NCBI GenBank assembly: GCA_027574665.1
Contig: CM050648.1
Coordinates: 139,748,175-139,812,174 of the forward strand
Length of the DNA: 64,000 nt
Origin: Rhynochetos jubatus
Lineage: Eukaryota > Chordata > Aves > Eurypygiformes > Rhynochetidae
Reading direction: 5' to 3'
Under the pieces are notes generated by a model. That model was not told the origin of the DNA. It saw only the letters and a list, made by a program, of their open reading frames with translations, and searched no databases. Below, in pieces: positions 9,600-34,115 of the stretch. Every line of letters begins with the position of its first letter. Position 1 is the first letter of the stretch. The translations under genes and the position numbers were made by a program.

Positions 9600-10372
9600 A
9601 TACACGAGGCAGCAAGATTTTTAAGGGTGGGTTTACAGGAACACTGACTTGGACAAGTACAAGTACAGGCTGGGCAGAGAATGGATCGAGAGCAGCCCTG
9701 AGGAAAAGGACTTGGGGGTACTGGTGGATGAAAAGCTGGACATGAGCCGGCAGTGTGCTTTGGCAGCCCAGAAAGCCAACTGTGTCCTGGGCTGTATCTG
9801 GAGAAGCGTGGCCGGCAGGTTGAGGGAGGGGATTCTCCCCCTCTATTCTGCTCTCTTGAGACCCCACCTGCAGTTCTGTCCAGCTGTGGAGCCCTCAACA
9901 TAAGAAAGATATCGACCAGTTGGAGCGAGTCCAGAGGAGGCCACAAAGCAGAGGGCTGGAGCCCCTCTGCTATGGGGACAGGCTGAGAGAGTTGGGCTTG
10001 TTCAGCCTGGAGAAGAGAAGGCTCTGGGGAGACCCTAGAGCACCTTCCAGTGCCTGAAGGGGGCTACAAGGAAGCTGGGGGGACTTTTTACAAGGGTCTG
10101 TAGTGATAGGACAAGGGGTAACGAGTTTAAATTGAAAGCGGGGAGATTTAAGTTGGATATCAGAAAAAAAATCTTCACTGAGAGGGTGGAGGCACTGGGA
10201 CAGGTTGTCCAGAGAAGCTGTGGGTGCCCCATCCCTGGAAGTGTTCAAGGCCAGGCTGGATGAGGCTTGGAGCAACCTGGTCTAGTGGAGGGTGTCCCTG
10301 CCCATGGCAGGGGGGTTGGAACTGGATGGGCTTTAAGGTCCCTTCCAGCCCAAACCATTCTGTGATTCTATG
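9600..10372 (+). mobile_element. CR1 LINE, 5'-truncated with ORF2 C-terminus
   Basis: This is a sense-oriented CR1 of about 770 bp lying 0.7 kb upstream of the SYT16 terminal exon. At 9649-9900 one frame reads the conserved ORF2 C-terminal motifs [32 protein letters not shown] and LQFC, after which the frame breaks. The 3' UTR follows (GGCTGGATGAGGCTTGGAGC, CCATGGCAGGGGGGTTGGAA) and ends with CATTCTGTGATTCTATGACC at 10372. It is non-autonomous and decayed. Confidence 0.93.
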
Positions 10373-11048
10373 ACCATCCTTTCCCTGTATCTACTAGGCA
10401 TTTTTTGTCCTTGTATTGACTTAAATAGTGAATAAAATTGACCTTTAGTACACCAAAAATGTAAGATGAGAACTTGGAAAATGTATTGAAACTATCCTGT
10501 GAGATCAAATAATTTCACTGTGTATGCAGGTTTCCTTTCCCTCTTTTCTCAGGACGCTTTTTGTTTGCTACTTCAAATAATAGGTCATAGAAGCATTCTT
10601 CCAAATGAAAGTGGGGCAGAGGCAAGTGCAGCCAAGGGAAGCCCTGGTAGGACAGCTCCAATGAAGCTTGGCTGTGAGGGAGAGGAAGAGAAGATGCTGA
10701 CACACCATTTGATGTGGAGAAGCCATAGAGAAGCTCATAGTTTCTGCTAGTCTTAGACAGGCTTGAGAACCAGACTTTCTGCTCTTTCTAAGAGAGTAGA
10801 GCTGAAACACACAGCAGTTTCCTCCCTTTCCTCTCCACAGCTGAATATGAGGAAATTCAAGAGGTGCTTTCACCTGCTGCTTCTCATGCCATGGGTTGTA
10901 CTAAGGAGAGCAGTCCAGCCCTCATCATATTCACTGCAGACAAAGCTGCTGTACTTGGAGCTTTTTGGGATGTTTTTTTGACTGCTTGGGGCTTTCATTT
11001 AGTCTGTCACCTGTGTCAAATGTGTTATTTCCTCTTTTTTTGTCACAG

Positions 11049-11362
11049 ACACCTATGGAAAGCTCTGCCTGCTCAACTCTGTGGGCCAGGAGATGTCTCG
11101 CTGCAAGACCTCCATCCGTCGAGGACAGCCCAACCCCATCTACAAGGAAACGTTCATCTTCCAGGTCGCCCTCTTCCAGCTCTCTGACGTCACGCTGATG
11201 ATTTCCATATACAACAGACGCAGCATGAAGCGCAAAGAGATGATCGGCTGGATTTCTATGGGTCAGAACAGCAGCGGAGAGGAAGAGCAAAGTCATTGGC
11301 AGGAGATGAAGGAGTCGAAAGGGACACAGGTCTGCAGGTGGCACACGCTGCTGGAGTCCTAG
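11049..11362 (+). CDS. SYT16: Synaptotagmin-16, terminal coding exon (C2B second half)
   Basis: This exon encodes the C-terminal ~104 residues of an atypical synaptotagmin, a C2-domain protein family of membrane trafficking. SYT14 and SYT16 lack the usual acidic calcium-binding residues and are thought to be calcium-independent. The acceptor TTTTTTTGTCACAG ends at 11048; the first two bases (AC) complete a codon from the previous exon. Residues read [20 protein letters not shown], then [20 protein letters not shown], then the [12 protein letters not shown] block, and the chain ends in CRWHTLLES before TAG (11360-11362). The [11 protein letters not shown] and LMISIYNRR segments favour SYT16 over SYT14, whose equivalents I recall as LNSSGEEEL.HW and LILSVYNKR. 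The frame is fully intact with coding-type substitution. Earlier exons lie upstream of the window or were not recognised. Confidence 0.9.
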
Positions 11363-17300: not shown

Positions 17301-20268
17301 TTTTGATCCTAATCTGGGAGCCTGCATGGGATTTGGATATTGCCCATCACAGGGACGTAAAACCTGAATCCTGCGAGGTACCACTGATGAAGGAAGCCTG
17401 TGCTGCTTGACAGCAATGCAGGTGGGCTGTGGTTGACCGTATGATCTTGCGCAACAAAGAAATGTACAGGCATCATGTTGCATCCAGTGAGCATTAGGCA
17501 GCTGGAGCTGGAAAAAGTTGAAGAAGAAACCTAAAAGCCAGATGGGAGCTATGGATATTCACTCAGACCTGTTAGTTGCTCATCTCTTTAGGAAACTGGA
17601 ATGCAGATTTTTTTGGTTTTAATTAACAAAAGTGGTTTAGCAGATATCACAGCTCCTGGGGCAGCTGCAGGTGCAAGGAAGTGAGGACATCACATCCTGG
17701 CTCTGGATTTCCCTCCTGTCTGTAATGGGTGAGCACTGAATAGATACCAAATACTCTGGTGGTGTCTGTCCCCTGTAATGTCATACCCAGCGTGGGTGGA
17801 TCTCATTGAGTAACATCTTGGCCATGAGCGAAGAATGAGAAGGATTCCCGATTCAGACAAAAGTGGAATTCTTTTCTGAGTCCGTGATCATTAATTAGCC
17901 TTGACCTCCAGGGAAGGCATTTTATTGTGCCAAATACTTCCCTCTCCCATAATATCTCAGACTTAGGAAAAGACTGCAAATTTGTCTCCTCATTAACAGC
18001 TGGGAAAAATAATATAATTTTGCCACCTTCCCTCATCCCTGTTGTCTCTTGTTAACACTCTCCAGGTGCTTTTCCTTCACGCTGTCTCTGTCATCACATC
18101 TCCCATCCTGTAGAGATCTGCTCCAAGTCAGGTCCGTGCCTGGTGGCAATATTTTATGTTCATGGTGCTCAGGATAAAACCTGTCCTTCAATCTCTCGCT
18201 GTCACTATGTGGCACCTCAAGCACAAGTTTTCCCGTTAAACCAGTACCACATCTCTCCTGTAGTCCTCTGCTGGCACTGCTGTGGGTTTTGTCTTGCTGG
18301 GCTGTATTCTCAGCTGTAATTTCATTGAGTTTTTCCCAGCAGAGAGTTTTGTTTGTCAAGAAGAGTACATGAAGTAATTGTTTGGTGGACTTAGCCTTTA
18401 AATACTCTGTGGCATTTATATGTGTATATAAGTGGGTTTTTTGCAGAGTGCCCCCAGGCATTTGCATGAAGCACTTCTCAATGTACATCTGAGTGTCGAT
18501 TTAAATACACTGTATATAATAAGTTATTTTTAGTGTGCATTGGCTTCTTTCTATATTGGAACGATATACCATTTCTGGCAGGTACAGGTTTTTGTGGTCT
18601 CACTGCTGCGCTCGCAGCTGGGCACTGGAGATGCAGTGGCCGAGATGTGCGTGCGTCTTCTCTTTCCTCCCCGTGCTCTGTGACAGAGTAGTCCTTTCTT
18701 TCCACCAGCTTTGTGGGTGGACATCCTTTGCTGCTGGGAAACGTTGATGCAGGACGGTGTTGTAAACCCCCTTCCTGCATCTCCCTCCTCCTGTGGAGTA
18801 AAATAATCTGCATTTAAGGTTTTTTTCCTATCATTGCTGACATATTGTCAGCACAGACCATGGCCAGGTAGCGAGCCGGTTGGTATTGCGAGAAACTCAG
18901 CTCTGTGGCTGAGGGTGTGTCAAGAATAGGAGAGATACCTGATCTCCTTTCCCAGCCTGCCATGTACGAGCACAAAAGTGCATCTGTAAACCAATCACTT
19001 TAAATAATAACAATACAGACAAATTAATAACAATGTCAGGTCCCTAATTTCTGTCAGTGCAAAAGCTTGAATGTACTGCTGAATTATTTTTATGGTAAGT
19101 ACAGCTAGGAAAGGAGAATTTTTCATATTGTGAAGGTTATAAGAAATTCATACACCCTTTTCATTTTTGTAAAGTTCAAAGTTTTGCACTGAAAATTGTA
19201 TCTTCAGTCTACCTAATAAATGGCTGTTATTGACTGTTAAGGCCACCAGAATGGTATGAGCATCATTCCATGTGCTGTGTGTGTGACCGAAAGAGATATC
19301 TGAAGTGCAAAACTGTGATAAAAAAGATGAAAAATACAACGAAAAGGTATTTGGATATTCAGCAGGAAGAGTGGTACGGGTTTATTCTTAGCTTTTCATG
19401 TACTTGACAATGAAACATTTTTTTCTACCTAAGTGCTAACGTGCATGATCATACAATATATTGCCTCTTGCTAATTATATGCTGTGTTAGGAATACTAAT
19501 GTCTAGATGATATCTGACTGGATAAAAAAAAAAAAAGAGCGTTAAACCCAGCTTCTGCAGAATTCTGGGCTGAAATTATACACACACACACAACCATCCA
19601 CACCTTAGAAACAGTCTTATTTTGTTACGGTGAACGCTGTTGTTGCAGGTTTTTATCAATAAAATAGAAGCAGATGGCTCATGTAGACATGCAAAACCAG
19701 CGTATCTTGCTTTTTGTTCATATTGTCACAGAAACAAGTGAATATGCATCTGGGAGAGGTGGACGTGTTTTGTTTGGAACAAAGATGCAGATGTCTAGTG
19801 CATAATGCATAACTGGGAGAAATGGGAAAAATCTCCCAGCTTCGTCCCCTTGTCTGTCTGCATGGACAGAGGGGCCCCGCGTCAGCAGGTGGAGGCTGCT
19901 GGGGGGCTTTGGGGGACTGAAAATGTTTGCATGCCCTGCCGTGTTACCGCCTCCTCTCAGCACATCGTGTGTTGATACCAGCTTTGTTGACATCCTGGCC
20001 ACGTGTATGGGATGCTGAGGGATGCCCCTGTAGCTGTTGGGGTGGTCACAGGGCGGATGTGTCTTGTTTTGGAAAGAGAGGTAAGAGCTCAAGGGTTGGA
20101 GAGATGAAATCGGGCTGATTGGAGGCCAGGCACATCACCTCAGCGGTGAGGGGTATGTCTTTATCTGGTGGCCTCTTACGCTACATGTACCTCTGCTCAC
20201 GATGCATCTGTGTGTGTGGTATGGGTCTGCCAGGTCACAGTTGTAACCCATGCCTACATTCAGATCTG
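14400..20268. other. Intergenic region without recognised genes
   Basis: No gene or clear exon was recognised. It contains homopolymer T runs (about 16060-16078 and 16660-16681), a short (CA)n at 19579-19592 and poly-A near 19525. The longest open frame (18033-18488, minus) has no recognisable motif. Confidence 0.6.
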
Positions 20269-24000: not shown

Positions 24001-26339
24001 TGTTCAGCTGGGCAGCGATTCCCAGCCAGGCATCCCTGGCAGAGGGGAAAACTCCTCTTCAGGTTGGAGTGGAGGTGATCTCTGGTGTTCCCATAGTAAG
24101 AGAAAGGAGATGGAATGGGGAGGGATGGGACGGGAAGATATGGGATGGGGTATCTGCTGTTTATCTTGATGGAGACCCCTTTCATCCAGCAAAGCAATGC
24201 TGGTTTATACTGGCAGGGGACCCATTTCCCTGTACTCTCTGCCCCCTCAGAAAGAAGACAAGGAAAAGCAGCTAGACTTGGATTGCAGAAGAACTTGCTC
24301 TGGGCTGATGGGGGGATGGAAACGCTTCTTGGAGCCAACTGGAGAAAGGTTAGCTGACCTTTTGGCTGTAAATTATTGCCAGCTAGTAAGTCCTCCTTGT
24401 GTGCTGACAGGAGAGTGGAAGATGTCTTTGCAGCAGAAATTGTGTTGAATGTTTAAAAAAAACATACAATCAATTTCAGGAAGACTGGAGTAACTAAGCC
24501 TGTCATTCATTCAGCTCTTAGATGCAGAGTAGGTGCCTCTGTGTCTTCCTTTTCTATCTCTGCATACAGAAGTGATATTAGTGAATTAATTATGACATCT
24601 TTGCGAAGAGCTGAAGGATCGCTCAAGTCCTCTATTCAGCAGCAGAGAAATGTCAGATTCACCTCACAGTAAATTTAAAATTACACCAACCTGAACTATC
24701 GCTACTGGCAGCATAATAATAAGGTAGGTAATCAAAATCAATTAAATTCCAGTGCCTTCCTATTGTCCTAGAAAATTCAAATCTGAAATTAGTTTGAGTT
24801 CATTTGACTTCTCAATAAAAGCAGCAGTTTCAGCAACGATCTGAAACAAGTATATGGCTGTGACTGATCTTTTCTCGACCTGCGAAGACCAGAGGAGCTG
24901 TGTGCATGCACACGCATGTCAGTGCATACTGAGTGCCAAATATAACCAGACACTCAAAGTCAAAGGGGTGACTGGTTGGAGGCTGCTGCGTTGATGTACG
25001 CTAGCTGGGACTCGAGCCTGCCAGGACTTGGTTTGTTAAAATCTAGATGGGATATTGATCGAGTGAATGCCAAAGTGTGCCTCCGTTCCCACCATGTAAG
25101 AGGGAGGAGGACTAGGCGTGGTGAATGCTGCCGTGCAGGACTTTCACGGAGACCCGGGAGCAACCAGAGGGCCCTACCAGCAGTGACATGCCCAGGTACA
25201 GTACGCGTGGGTCACCCATCTTCCAGAGCACAAGAGAACAGAGGTTTTGCCCAGGAGCTTCAGATGCTGCCAAAATGAATGTGTTCCCATAGCACCTTGC
25301 CATGGTTTTGGCACTGGCTGAGCCTTTAAGTCACCTCCAGGAGTAGTCATGGGCCGGAGTCAATGCCTGCTTGGACGGGTGGCTATGGCCCAGGCATGAG
25401 GCTGTCAGGAGCAGTGCTGGCACCCATGGTAGTTGTGCTGTGTGGACAGAGGCACAGCTGGGAGGCACAGAAGAAAATCTATTGTCTAAGGAGTTTTTGT
25501 CTTGGAGAAAGGTGCTGAGCAGGGCCCAGGCTGGGTGCTGAGGGTGATCTAAGCCAGGGTTGTGCCAATAACTTCACTGCAGCCATTGACAGCAATCTGG
25601 CTTTCCAGAAAAATTTATCTCATACAGCCTTTTTTCCCAAGTCTGGATAAGGCACACTTCTTTCAGGGAAGAACCCTACACATAGCTGTCTGGAGAAACG
25701 GTTAAAAAAAACTCCCATCACTTTTTTTTTTTTTTTTTTTGGCAATCTCCCATCTACCAGTGTCTACCTGTAGAGTTCGGATCTTTGGGAAATGGATTCC
25801 CCCTCTTTGTGCATGCTGCCTGGCACAGGTAAGATTTTACCTACTCCTTTTAAACTTTTTCTGAGCCTTGCTGGCTGGACCCTTGGTCGTGAGGGTAGAC
25901 TGAGCCTGATATCCTGCCCACTGCCATAAGAAGGGTGCTCAGCAGTAAAATCCCTCTGCCTGGGATGCAGGAGTTGCCCCACCCCACAGTGACCTGCTGT
26001 TTTGTTTGGGAGAAGAAGAGGTTTGGGTTGGTTTGCTGTGTGGTTTCTGTTCCTGCAGAAATCCCCATTTCCACCCATGGGATTTCAGAGTGCCATGGAG
26101 CCTCTTTGGGGTCACGGGTGGTGAGACACAGGGTGTTGTGGTGGGGCATCCCAAAGGCTCAGGAAAAAAGTGTGTCAAGATGTGGTGATGAGCACGGAGG
26201 AAGGACAAAGCAACCTAAGTCTGGAGGGAAGAGGAGTGCGACCCATAGAGAGAGCAGAGAGGTCTGTGCTCGCTGCCAGCAGTCCCAAATTGGGCTCACC
26301 GCTCCCTCCAGCCTTTCCAGGCACCGGATTGTCTTTCTC
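21049..26339. other. Intergenic region without recognised genes
   Basis: No coding exon was recognised. It includes poly-T/poly-A runs (22749-22766, 23829-23846, 25722-25741), a GGGAT-rich degenerate repeat around 24100-24150, and an AT-rich, repeat-free patch at about 24560-24850 that may be a conserved non-coding element. Confidence 0.6.
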
Positions 26340-27130
26340 CCAGTCTTGCCCTGAAGCGGGCAGAGCTCTCGCCCCCTTCCCGTGCCTCAGCGGACACCCG
26401 GCACCCCTACGGCCGCCGCTCCGCTCCCTCACCCCGCCCCGAGGCTCGGAGCAGGGCTGTCCCCACCCAGCTCTGGCCTTTCACACCCCCATCCCCTGCC
26501 GCGACGCCCCAGGCAGCTCCTCACCGCCTTTCCAGCTCTGATCCGCGGCACCAGCTCCGTGCCCGGCTCCCCCCGCAGCCCGGCCTCCGCCCGTCCCGGC
26601 CTGGCGTCAGGACCTCCCCCTCCCTTCCCTCCTCCCTCCCCACGGCTTCGAGTCGCGCCAGTGATGGGGAGAGCGTCACCATCTCCTAGCAACGCTCCTA
26701 GCAACGCTCCTAGCAACCGAGCAACATCTGCTCCCGCTGGACCAATCCGTGCCGGGCACATCTGGGCACCCACCTCCGCGGGCTGCGGCCGGGAGGTGAT
26801 GCGCTCCTCAGTGGCTGCAGGGACCCGCAGGAGCTGCCACCGCCGCCACCTCCTCCAGGAGCAGCGGGCAGCGAGGGAAGGACAGGGAGCAGCCCTCCCT
26901 CTGGAGCCGGGGCTCGCCGGGTGAGTGCCAACGAGCCGGACGGGACAGCGAGCCGTGGGGTTGGCGGTGGCAGCGGGGGGTTCTGCCCAAATGGCTTTAG
27001 CAGGTGGCTGGTGGCGTGGAGGGAGTTTGGGGAGTGTTTGTGAGCTCTGGGCTTCGCTGCGTCGCGCAAGAGGGCGAAGAGCGGGGAGGGAACTCGTCCT
27101 GCAGGGCTAGGGGCTGCGGGCAGGGGGGCA
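26340..27130 (+). promoter_or_regulatory. CpG-island promoter with tandem RFX/X-box half-sites
   Basis: The segment is strongly GC-rich and CpG-dense compared with everything around it, which is the usual form of a vertebrate CpG-island promoter. It holds three tandem CCTAGCAAC half-sites (26683-26718) and a CGTCA half-CRE just upstream. A strong splice donor, GCCGG|GTGAGTGCC, lies at 26921, so a first exon probably ends at 26920. The next + strand gene is the SERTAD4-like gene 6.6 kb downstream, which makes it the likely owner. A reading frame opens at ATG 26799 and stays open to the donor, but neither the start site nor the coding status can be determined from sequence alone. Confidence 0.65.
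26683..26718 (+). repeat. Three tandem 12-bp X-box-like units
   Basis: The unit CTCCTAGCAACG occurs three times head to tail; the last copy ends in CC. A degenerate GAGCAAC follows at 26719-26725. CCTAGCAAC is the half-site recognised by RFX-family factors, and the same nine bases open the X1 box of human HLA-DRA. Confidence 0.9.
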
Positions 27131-30100
27131 TGCTCTGCGAGGGGTCATTTTAACCAGGGGCATCTTTTTACGGTCAAAGCTGAACTCTGGAAAGTAACCC
27201 TAGCTACTCTTTCATTGCCTGTTAGCGGAATGTCATCCTCTGGGATGAGACAGCTATCCAGATATAGATGCCTTATAGCTGCGAGACGTGACCACACACA
27301 CATGCACTCTTCTGTTTCTTTCTCTCTTGCAGGATTTAGACCTGTTTATTTTCACTTATGTACATAAAAAGTGTGTCTCTGCACTCCAAGCGCAGGCTTT
27401 GGGTATGCACATGCATATCTGTGATTGTTTTTCCCCTGGAGTGGGGAATACTCTTACTACAGCATGCTAATACCCCCGCCCCCCCTCCCCAGAACGCAAG
27501 GCATCAGCCGGGTACTGCTGCATCTACTTGCAGCCGGGAAACTGGACCGTACACAAGGCAAACACCGCAGCACGCACGCTGCAATAATTCTGTCAAATAG
27601 AAATGGTAATCTGACTTTCCCCGGACCTGTATTCCTCTGCGGGCAGTGTTGGGGGTGGGGGCGTGTGGTAGGAAATGAATGCTACTACTCGAAATGATGG
27701 TGTGTTTTTAATAGTATCCCGTTAGCTTTCCTCCCAGGCTGACAAGAATTAATGGAGAAAATAATGTGCTGTTTTAAGAGATCATGTTCAGGGCAGTAAT
27801 CACGTTCTAGCTCAGGAAACCTCTGGATATTTAGAGGAGCAAGCTGTATTTTTGCAGCATTGGCTCCGCAAGGATTAGAGCTATACCACTGAGAGACAGA
27901 AATGATCTTTCTTAATGTTTCATTTTACTTTCCCGCTGTTTGAAAGGAAGTCCAGGAAGCAAGGTCAAAGTTAGAGAATTGGATGTGACATCAGAATTTT
28001 TTTTTTTTCCCTTACTAAGCCCCGTGGGGCTGCTGAAACAGCACTCCCCTCTCTTGCAGCCCAGCTACTTGCCCTGTATGTCCTGACTTTGCCACCAGAG
28101 CCACGTGTGTTTCTCCCTGACCCACCACGGCAGGTAACCGTTCAGCAGTGCCGTGCTGCCAGAAATGCTCGCTGAGCCCGTGCGAGGAGGAAATCTTACC
28201 AGAACTGCTGAGATTATCCCAGAAAGACCCTTTGCAGACTGACTCCGCATCCTCAGGTAACTAACAAGTTTGCACACTTCAGCCGGTCGGGCTTGCCTTC
28301 AGTGAGGGAAATTACTTGGATTCGTGTTGAAAGGGGGTAAAGCTGGAAATATGATGTTATGCTATTGATAAAAGCAGTAGGACTACATGGAACAAGACAG
28401 GAATAGTAACTCAGTCCTTAAGTATCGTGTCTTTATGCACTCATGAGAGTTATTCAGATGCTTGTGCCTTGCACACAGGTGTGCCCAGGGAGATCTGCAA
28501 AGCAATTACCAAACGAAAAGAAAGGCAGGTTTAAAGTGCGAAGCCAGCAGCTCCAGCCAGCAGACAAAAGCATGGCTGTGGGTCATCACCTTTCCACTGG
28601 TCAATTAAAGGGGGCTCTCTCTGCCTGAGCAAGGAATAAGAGCAGATACTCGGGAAGGACTGCTATCGATTGGCAGTCCATGTGAAATCCTGGCACTGAC
28701 ATGTGTTTTCGATCCACATGTTCATCTGTCTGTGGTCTAGTAGCTTTGCATTACCAGCTGGGAATCCCACAGTGAAACCAGCTGCTTTTCCTGCCCCTGG
28801 AAGAGGGGAAATGCAGCAACATAGCATGTGAAATCAGAGGAGGGTTTCAGCTGAGCACTCCCTAATTGCAGGTGCTGCTAAGGTTAGAGACAAGGGAATT
28901 TATCACTGCAGTTTGACAGCAGTCGCAAGGACATGATGATATTTCCTGTCATGTCAAAGTCACGTCTCCTGCTGATAATAAATGCCAATTTCTGTGTGCT
29001 CAGAAGCCTCAGGTTTTCCATGCATGCATGTAAGAGATGCTCAGAAATGGTTTCCGTCTCAGCCAGCTTTAGCTTGCATATTGATTATCATCCCTTACGC
29101 TGTGAGAGGAAACCCTGCAGGCACCAGCACGTTTGACTCGCCACCTTTGGCGTGCAGCATCGGCAGGTCTGTCCTGGCCAGAGAGCCTCTGCGCTTACCC
29201 CCTGCCCACGTCCGCACCAACAAGCCAAGGGTACCTGCTCCCACAGCCCCTTCCACTGCAGCACCGAGCAGGCACGGATGAATTTACTTCCCAAGGAAGG
29301 GTAGGAGAGATGGAGGCACAGGCAGGTGTGGGACGCTCCCAAGGTCTCACGTATGACTTCTGGGGCAGAGCCGCTGTGCAGACCTGGGGCTTGCAGATCC
29401 CTCTCTGTAGCCGGAGATGGAAAAGCATGAGCTTTGGGGTTTTTCTTCCTGGCTGTTGAATCATTTGTTAAACCCCATCTTGCCTTCTGTCTGGGCTAGC
29501 TTGCAGCCCTGTGGAAATCATCCGGCATCAATTTGTGTCGAAGAGAGGCTCCTGTCGCTGGGGTGATGCGGAAGTGCAGGGGCCAGAGGAAGAGAATTTC
29601 TTGCCATTTGCAGTTCAACTGTGAAGTTGCTGTGTTATAAATCTATTTCCAATCCAATTTAGATAAGATAAAGCTCTGTCCAAACACACCTAATATCTTT
29701 GTGGGTACCACACCATAGAGCATGTTAATTATTCCTGGAGAAATAAATAGGAACAAGCACATTTTGCTCTTTTGAAAGTACAATTAAAGCTCTTGCAAAG
29801 CTGCGTTTGAGAGATCCAGGCTTCAGACAGAGGCGTCTATTCCCTCACTGCCGCGTGTGGGATTTATGCTTCAAACTTCCATTAGCTTTAATGGCAGCTA
29901 CAGCTGCCGTGCTCTGATGTGCTGTGCATTCAGAGCAGGCACGCACCGGCGGGGTGTAAACACTGGCCAGCGTGAGCAAGCAGCCCCTGCCCGCCGCCTC
30001 CCCAGCCCTGGCAGCGCTGCCCGCTGTTGCCAATTTTACCGAGTCCTCGGTGACCAGCGGAAGGCTTGTATCTGAACGCTGGCGGGATGTCGAATGCGCT

Positions 30101-33100: not shown

Positions 33101-33535
33101 TGTCCTGCCTGCACCCCAGCATGGCACAGGGCCCCCTGTTCTACCCATCCCGGCCCCTCCTGCAGTGTGGGGAGACCTTCCTGGTGCAGGCATCCCTCAC
33201 CCTGCTCCACGAGGCTGTGGCTGGCCAGGGGTACCCCGCTCGGCTTGTAGGACCTGGAGACCCTGCCCACCATGTGTCCAGTGCTGAGATCGCCTCTACG
33301 GAGCAGGGCCGGCTGTGCTGTCAGGGCAGTGCCTTGGCAATGCCTTCACATTTTCCAGCCTCCCAGATTTTTCTCCAGTGGGGTGAGGGCTGCGGGGAGT
33401 GGGTCGAGGCTGAGTGCTGTCCTGGCTGTGTCCCAACTCTGGAACCCTCCTTCTCCTACACCCCCTGGACCGTGATGTTACAACCACCATGGCAGACAGT
33501 GTTATCGAGCCTCTTTTTCTTCTTGTTTTGTGCAG
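26921..33535 (+). other. Presumed intron 1 of the SERTAD4-like gene
   Basis: This is the sequence between the CpG-island donor at 26921 and the acceptor at 33535. No intermediate exon with SERTAD4 N-terminal similarity was found. It includes a GAT-rich microsatellite at 30648-30685, a MIR-like relic at 31690-31790 and a GC-rich stretch at 33079-33546 with a long but unrecognised open frame. The assignment as one intron is inference. Confidence 0.4.
31690..31790 (+). repeat. MIR-like SINE relic
   Basis: Blocks CCCAGCTCTGACAGCCTGGG, GTCACTTCATCTTTCTGTACC and GTTTTCCTCAG match, in order, the MIR 3' half (cggctctgccac, gtcacttaacctctctgtgcctcagtttcctc). Divergence is high, as expected for a pre-avian SINE. 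Confidence 0.5.
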
Positions 33536-33541
33536 AGCTGA

Positions 33542-33652
33542 TCTGATCGGGGCCTACCAAAGACATTAACGACGTCGAAAGTAGCCTATTTTAAGAGAAA
33601 ATATGCAGAAGAGGAACATTTACGTCAAGATTACCATGACTATTGTCCAAAA
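33542..33652 (+). CDS. SERTAD4-like protein, exon upstream of SERTA core
   Basis: This is the open part of the penultimate exon (37 codons), ending at the donor CCAAAA|GTGAGT. It reads SDRGLPKTLTTSKVAYFKRK followed by YAEEEHLR. The match is to human SERTAD4 RGISNPITTSKITYFKRKY as I recall it, so the resemblance covers the whole exon, not only the SERTA domain. The best acceptor (TTCTTGTTTTGTGCAG) ends at 33535, but the same frame then meets TGA at 33539-33541. A weaker AG at 33561-33562 would skip the stop and begin the exon at codon ACA. No in-frame ATG exists in this exon. SERTAD family proteins are nuclear transcription co-regulators; a role here is inferred only from family. The gene could be functional with an alternative acceptor, or a young pseudogene. 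Confidence 0.75.
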
Positions 33653-33740
33653 GTGAGTAGCTCTCTCATTGCAGATGCCCTCCTTCCCTGGTTTCATTCC
33701 TTGATGCTAAAGACCCTTTTGCTTGCTCTTCACTCCCCAG
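33653..33740 (+). other. 88-bp intron of the SERTAD4-like gene
   Basis: The donor is GTGAGTAG and the acceptor CTCTTCACTCCCCAG, in phase 0. The junction falls directly before the segment leading into the SERTA domain ([11 protein letters not shown]). I recall the comparable SERTAD4 position as CSHK followed by TISIFEER, so the intron position appears conserved. Very short introns are common in birds. Confidence 0.85.
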
Positions 33741-34115
33741 CACCTGATATTACCCGAGGACCGGACTTGTATTCTAAAACTTTCTCTCCAGAAACTCCGA
33801 TTCCTGGACGACCCTGAAGCCTATCTCCGTAGGTCTGTATTAATTAACAATCTGTTGAGGAAGATTCACCTAGAGACAGAGAGGGAGAGCTATGAATACT
33901 TTAAGGAAGCTCCCTGTTATAGGACTGCTTACTCTGATGCACGAAAACGGCTGAAGTTTATGGTACAGGAGTGCTGTTCCCAGTCGCTCTATTATGAAGA
34001 GCTGCATTCGTATCGCATCGTGCCTTACTCTGCAGAGAACGCCGTTTACGGAATGGGCTACACGAGCAGCCACTTGGAGCAAAATTCTCAATTGCTTATT
34101 TATAAAATGAATTAA
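33741..34115 (+). CDS. SERTAD4-like protein, terminal exon with SERTA domain
   Basis: This exon has 124 codons plus TAA (34113-34115), with no interruptions. Residues 10-43 form a complete SERTA motif: [20 protein letters not shown] then [19 protein letters not shown]4 differs in only a few places ([20 protein letters not shown] as I recall it), and the other SERTAD proteins are much further away. In SERTAD1-3 this motif mediates protein contacts such as CDK4 or transcription-factor binding; no partner can be deduced here. Weaker similarity continues after the motif ([35 protein letters not shown] against CPYRKRPRM..., YQECGGHYLNLPLSVNANV). The chain then ends after about 161 recognisable residues in total, where SERTAD4 runs to about 356. 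The long serine-rich and acidic C-terminus is absent. The gene lies on the same strand as SYT16, 22 kb downstream. Confidence 0.85.

Follow-up and report, generated by a model that had tools for sequence, protein, structure and literature searches.

A SERTAD4 paralogue between SYT16 and KCNH5 in a bird genome, with a probable counterpart in LINC00643/UPF0730

Introduction

What is a SERTA gene doing beside SYT16 in the genome of Rhynochetos jubatus, how old is it, and does it still encode a protein? The passage of PMC13398235 that treats the blocks SERTAD4-HHAT-KCNH1 and SYT16-KCNH5 names no SERTA gene in the second. An initial annotation of this locus had proposed an ohnologue of SERTAD4, kept in the bird in the expected place and orientation, and apparently missing from mammals.

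Results

A two-exon SERTA frame with a UPF0730 tail

The window (the whole stretch of 64,000 nucleotides analysed, C1:139748175-139812174) belongs to a genome of 1.33 Gb in 148 contigs. The gene under study and its upstream neighbour are laid out as follows, in window positions.

11048..11359, + strand: last coding exon of SYT16 (end of C2B), the upstream neighbour; C2 domain at E=2.8e-11
33536..33652, + strand: exon 1 of the SERTAD4 paralogue, starting TTSKVAYFKRKYAEEE...; homologous to SERTAD4 coding exon 2, with an in-frame TGA at 33539-33541
33653..33740, + strand: intron of 88 bp, phase 0, GTGAGT...CCCCAG
33741..34115, + strand: exon 2, with the SERTA motif at 33771-33875, the UPF0730 tail at 33969-34106 and the stop TAA at 34113-34115
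33960..34115, + strand: 51-aa open frame that starts at the first in-frame ATG and nearly coincides with the UPF0730 domain

The joined frame (33542-33652 plus 33741-34115, + strand) has 161 codons and ends in TAA. Both exons have GT-AG borders, with splicing predicted from the DNA, and apart from its start the frame is intact, as are its splice sites and stop codon. The exons had been placed 22 kb downstream of SYT16, and this was confirmed: the last SYT exon ends at 11359, on the same strand. They had also been read as encoding a SERTAD4-type SERTA protein; the frame, the GT-AG borders and the SERTA match were confirmed, a complete protein was not.

A profile search placed the Pfam SERTA motif (PF06031) at aa 48-82 (E=1e-13, 51.1 bits, cut-off 25), which makes the gene a member of the SERTA-domain (SERTAD/TRIP-Br) family; SERTAD4 of the same genome scored 51.0 bits. 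The initial annotation had noticed the SERTA part and overlooked a second domain on the same frame, UPF0730 (PF15827), at aa 114-159 (8.9e-25, 86.9 bits, cut-off 25), with the profile covered end to end (positions 1-47 of 47). The gene is thus also a member of UPF0730.

Genome-wide, the two profiles hit the window gene at C1:139781945-139782049 (SERTA) and C1:139782143-139782280 (UPF0730). SERTA exceeded its cut-off at all five places listed in the genome and in none of 14 control genomes. UPF0730 exceeded it at one of three listed places (E up to 10), namely the window gene; the other two were under the cut-off and contain stops, and the single match among the 14 control genomes was likewise under it. 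The four other SERTA proteins of the genome gave no UPF0730 match at E up to 10 (0/5 other proteins scanned), in a scan in which SERTAD4 was represented by its last exon alone and the HMMER filters let few matches above about 0.1 through. Among solved structures, the sole match listed for the window protein at E up to 10 had E=0.18. Viral and prokaryote contigs gave 3 and 38 pattern matches, respectively, none of them confirmed by tblastn.

Relationship to SERTAD4

The SERTA genes of the genome are these.

C1, window: the gene under study
C3, 25.965 Mb: SERTAD4
C3, 17.07 Mb: SERTAD2-like gene
C1, 141.9 Mb: CDCA4-like gene and SERTAD1/3-like gene

We take the gene at C3:25.965 Mb to be SERTAD4, judged against a provisional human SERTAD4 sequence: the two coding exons that follow the first were 88% and 93% identical to it, compared with 53% for the stretch matched in the first. 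The names of the SERTAD2-like, CDCA4-like and SERTAD1/3-like genes are likewise assumed from provisional human sequences.

Six places were listed when the window protein was used as a genome query: its own two exons, two exons of SERTAD4, and two weak ones (E=0.16 with three stops, and E=4.4). Identity to SERTAD4 of the same genome was 43% over 135 columns, and 15/23 in the core of exon 1. Counted by codon position (first/second/third), the two genes differ at 7/1/16 sites in 23 codons of exon 1 and at 13/9/26 sites in 44 codons of the SERTA core. Because of this third-position excess, the exon match to SERTAD4 exceeds chance. As read from the codons, the differences show long past selection on the protein, a result that concerns its history and not any present action.

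The two genes also have in common an intron directly before the SERTA motif, in phase 0 in both (3170 bp in SERTAD4 vs 88 bp). A phylogeny had been proposed as a check, and a tree of the five SERTA proteins of this genome joined the window gene to SERTAD4 with 99/99 support, with long branches flagged. Clade and intron together place the gene in the SERTAD4 subfamily.

Outside this shared part the two genes diverge. No match to the SERTAD4 C-terminal tail was found in the window at E up to 1, and the likeness of the two tails is weak: of 2000 shuffles, 18 scored as high for the whole part behind SERTA, and 76 did so for the stretch that matches UPF0730. A tblastn search of the window with the SERTAD4 N-terminal exon returned nothing convincing among the matches listed. 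The best of these (26416-26580, E=0.001, 31% identity) is proline-rich, contains one stop and was obtained with composition adjustment off. Since neither the N-terminal exon nor the long C-terminal tail was found, the window gene was filed as a paralogue and not as SERTAD4, in line with the initial annotation.

Two simpler identities were discarded. SERTAD4 itself is ruled out, as it has its own place on C3, next to the second SYT14/16 gene, and a retrocopy of SERTAD4 is ruled out by the retained intron.

Elsewhere on C1, the SERTAD1/3-like gene (a frame of 289 aa) lies about 20 kb from the CDCA4-like gene, at 141.89-141.91 Mb and 2.1 Mb away from the window. Possibly this gene is a further SERTA ohnologue, one that is not known to have a human counterpart beside CDCA4.

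Mirrored gene order and age of the duplication

With the window SYT exon as query, five places were listed: the exon itself, C3:25996087-25996398 (- strand) with 84% identity, and three at 24-28%. From their neighbours and the naming in the initial annotation, the window gene was taken as SYT16 and the C3 gene as SYT14. SERTAD4 starts about 27 kb downstream of the SYT gene on C3, and the window SERTA gene 22 kb downstream of its own, each on the strand of its neighbour.

A provisional human KCNH5 N-terminal query matched 11 places in the genome. Three of them, at C1 140.126-140.150 Mb (- strand, 82-96% identity), were taken as KCNH5, and four at C3 25.564-25.588 Mb (+ strand, 66-88%) as KCNH1, one of these alignments containing a TAG; the remaining four lie elsewhere, at 37-40% identity. 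The nearest KCNH5 and KCNH1 matches lie about 344 kb past the window SERTA gene and about 376 kb past SERTAD4, respectively, and both channel genes face the SERTA genes. The result is a mirrored order and orientation: SYT16 (+), window gene (+), KCNH5 (-) on C1, and SYT14 (-), SERTAD4 (-), KCNH1 (+) on C3.

Thus the separate SERTAD4 expected beside SYT14 is present, on C3, downstream of SYT14 and facing KCNH1, and KCNH5 lies on the far side of the window gene and faces it. Neither observation that might have overturned the initial proposal was made: SERTAD4 and the window gene are two separate copies, and the SYT gene beside SERTAD4 is a different one from the neighbour of the window gene. Because position, orientation, intron and sequence agree within this genome, the reading of the window gene as the SERTAD4 ohnologue of the SYT16-KCNH5 block is well supported, and the initial claim for its place and orientation holds.

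We infer that the duplication dates to the early vertebrate genome duplications. This placement rests on synteny and UPF0730, not on the trees, whose human rows are provisional. There, the window gene fell outside bird and human SERTAD4 with a support of only 83/78 in the nine-row tree and 80/44 in the six-row tree. In an AU test (p=0.228), a SERTAD4 duplicate specific to this lineage and inserted next to SYT16 was not rejected, and the small tree by itself does not fix the age. Such a late copy is very unlikely all the same. Three gene pairs run parallel in order and orientation, the tree path between the window gene and SERTAD4 is 2.2-2.9 vs about 0.1 between SERTAD4 of this genome and the provisional human SERTAD4, and UPF0730 names a human protein too.

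LINC00643 and the mammalian counterpart

Under the naming rule of lncRNA catalogues, lnc-SYT16-67 points to SYT16 as the nearest coding gene. We assume that human LINC00643 lies at 14q23. In the passages concerned, PMC10571996 equates LINC00643 with lnc-SYT16-67, and a table in PMC6798591 gives a 'Putative UPF0730 protein encoded by LINC00643' (Q86TS7). The UPF0730 match, the family name and the SYT16-based lncRNA name make the window gene probably the orthologue of mammalian LINC00643/UPF0730.

The initial annotation's 'apparently missing from mammals' was therefore not supported, since the tail of the gene is UPF0730, the name of the predicted product of LINC00643, and the lncRNA is named after SYT16. 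Mammals have probably reduced the SERTAD4 sister to LINC00643/UPF0730, and the phrase should be worded in this way. This was drawn from the bird gene and from names, by which Q86TS7 is tied to PF15827.

In its relevant passages, PMC7555810, which used synteny and orthology to find human pseudogenes, counts LINC00643 as one of them. Rabbit is listed there with a coding homologue in syntenic position, mouse and rat without one, and gorilla as not retaining it; the word 'serta' is absent from the main text of that paper. Strong expression of LINC00643 in human brain and minimal expression in liver are reported, and horse shows the same pattern (an excerpt of PMC7549351); in medulloblastoma the RNA is reported as down-regulated (an excerpt of PMC7318516). 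Cancer and Alzheimer studies treat LINC00643 as a non-coding RNA and, in the sections concerned, give it no coding ancestry.

Among the matches listed, a link between a SERTAD4 sister and LINC00643/UPF0730 was not found in print. Multi-term matches included no paper with LINC00643 and SERTAD4 together, and 'sertad4b' was the sole match for SERTAD4-like or SERTAD5 names. The main text of PMC5644071 contains no SERTA, SYT16, UPF0730, LINC00, chr14 or KCNH5, and the relevant part of PMC5391234 consists of gene lists only.

The missing start codon

Read on from the pyrimidine-rich acceptor (AG 33534-33535), exon 1 opens in this frame with AGC-TGA. The TGA at 33539-33541 is in frame, and no in-frame ATG precedes 33960, from which the readable product is the 51-aa UPF0730 tail. 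In SERTAD4 the exon starts cag|GA-TCA-CAT-TAC-AGG-GGA, compared with cag|AGC-TGA-TCT-GAT-CGG-GGC in the window, so that the TGA aligns with a Ser codon of SERTAD4. From the acceptor to the TTSK codons there are 33 nt in the window vs 32 in SERTAD4, counted by eye.

Joins to an upstream exon were tried for three acceptors in three phases. One of the nine reached the SERTA frame stop-free, through the poor acceptor AG 33561-33562 in phase 0. An AUG start joined to the SERTA frame was not found. The full protein is in doubt because of the in-frame TGA and the lack of an ATG before 33960, and for the same reason the initial view of a gene kept in working order was not supported.

A 500-base scan of the window (GC above 0.55, CpG ratio above 0.5) detected one CpG island.

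26251..27250, no strand: CpG island from the 500-base scan, a possible site of the promoter and first exon, with a GT donor at 26921

The island is the natural candidate for the promoter and 5' exon of the SERTAD4 paralogue, a predicted link. Within it, an ATG-open stretch at 26664-26920 (85 codons and 2 bases) ends at the GTGAGT donor at 26921. Splicing of this stretch to exon 1 was rejected, as it runs into the stop TAA at 33567-33569.

Other features of the window were recorded as well. At 26683-26717 the island holds 2.9 perfect copies of CTCCTAGCAACG; CCTAGCAAC resembles an RFX half-site. A tRNA-Ser (tga) was found by ARAGORN at 18160-18251 (- strand), between SYT16 and the SERTA gene. 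The frame at 9625-9900 (+ strand) resembles the reverse transcriptase of a CR1 LINE, to judge from a motif.

Working gene, decay or tail peptide

If the SERTA gene still works, the full 161-codon frame would be translated from a non-AUG start (ACG 33569 or 33572) or through an unseen exon joined at the 33561-33562 acceptor. We give this a little under even odds. That acceptor preserves the frame in phase 0, the core of exon 1 has stayed close to SERTAD4 at the identity given above, and the 161 codons carry no lesion. At an assumed indel rate of 10%, neutral drift would leave such a frame intact with a probability of 0.02 at 0.05 substitutions per site and 0.0004 at 0.1, but still with 46% and 21% at 0.01 and 0.02. 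Against a working gene, the TGA comes in through the pyrimidine-rich acceptor, and the listed matches in the window held no convincing SERTAD4-like N-terminal exon (best E=0.001).

The same TGA, at a codon that is Ser in SERTAD4, and the phase misfit that follows from 33 nt in place of 32 would fit a gene in decay, that is, a unitary pseudogene lost recently in this species with its N-terminal part broken first. The human pseudogene status of LINC00643 and its non-retention in gorilla (PMC7555810, in the passages cited above) point the same way, but the intact remainder of the frame, with its splice sites and stop, does not. Decay is possible, at clearly less than even odds.

Finally, only the 51-aa peptide from ATG 33960 might be made, the SERTA part being an untranslated relic. 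This ATG lies three codons ahead of the UPF0730 domain, itself matched over all 47 positions; however, it has a T at -3, and an open, SERTAD4-like SERTA frame is not expected of a long-untranslated relic. We consider a tail peptide as the sole product unlikely.

Discussion

Taken as a whole, the locus is best explained as a SERTAD4 ohnologue, the probable orthologue of LINC00643/UPF0730, shortened, and either started through a non-AUG codon or an unseen exon or else untranslated (probability about 0.85). An early vertebrate genome duplication would have left a second SERTAD4 copy in the SYT16-KCNH5 block, with SERTAD4 in the SYT14-KCNH1 block. The copy retains the SERTA motif, the exon with TTSK-FKRKY and a tail that is conserved, but it has neither the long C-terminal part of SERTAD4 nor a recognisable N-terminal coding exon. 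SERTA proteins are nuclear adaptors whose partners are docked by the SERTA helices. The ancestral product may accordingly be pictured as a SERTAD4-like co-regulator that docked partners in this manner and is now shortened. In this bird the SERTA frame would be reached from a non-AUG start, or by splicing of an unseen 5' exon to a poor acceptor; alternatively, it may no longer be translated, which would leave at most the 51-aa UPF0730 peptide.

A bolder proposal, which we regard as rather doubtful, is that a SERTA regulator born in a genome duplication has been shrinking towards its tail across amniotes, with UPF0730 and the brain lncRNA LINC00643 as the remains of a SERTAD4 sister, and with the tail possibly a separate microprotein made from the same internal methionine here and in mammals. 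The probable orthology with LINC00643, if true, would give an origin, as SERTAD4-sister remnants, to the uncharacterised Pfam family UPF0730 and to the brain-expressed human lncRNA LINC00643. Translation of the LINC00643 tail and loss of SERTA would then become directly testable across vertebrates, the ancestry being known.

Comparison with known systems

The closest known relative, SERTAD4, resembles the window gene in a SERTA motif of equal Pfam score, in the TTSK-FKRKY exon, in the identical place of the phase-0 intron, and in lying on the same side and strand relative to a SYT14/16 gene. Unlike SERTAD4, the window gene carries UPF0730 and has no N-terminal coding exon that could be found; its last exon encodes 124 aa, compared with 256 aa in SERTAD4, and it is missing the Ser-rich stretch and the YDYFETG tail. 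The other SERTA genes of this genome (SERTAD2-like, CDCA4-like and SERTAD1/3-like) share the SERTA motif with it, but they give no UPF0730 match and do not group with SERTAD4 and the window gene in the tree. With human LINC00643 (Q86TS7) and UPF0730 (PF15827) the likeness lies in the full 47-position profile match and in the SYT16 of the lncRNA's other name. The human locus is filed as a lncRNA or pseudogene, whereas in the window the UPF0730 tail shares its frame with a SERTA motif.
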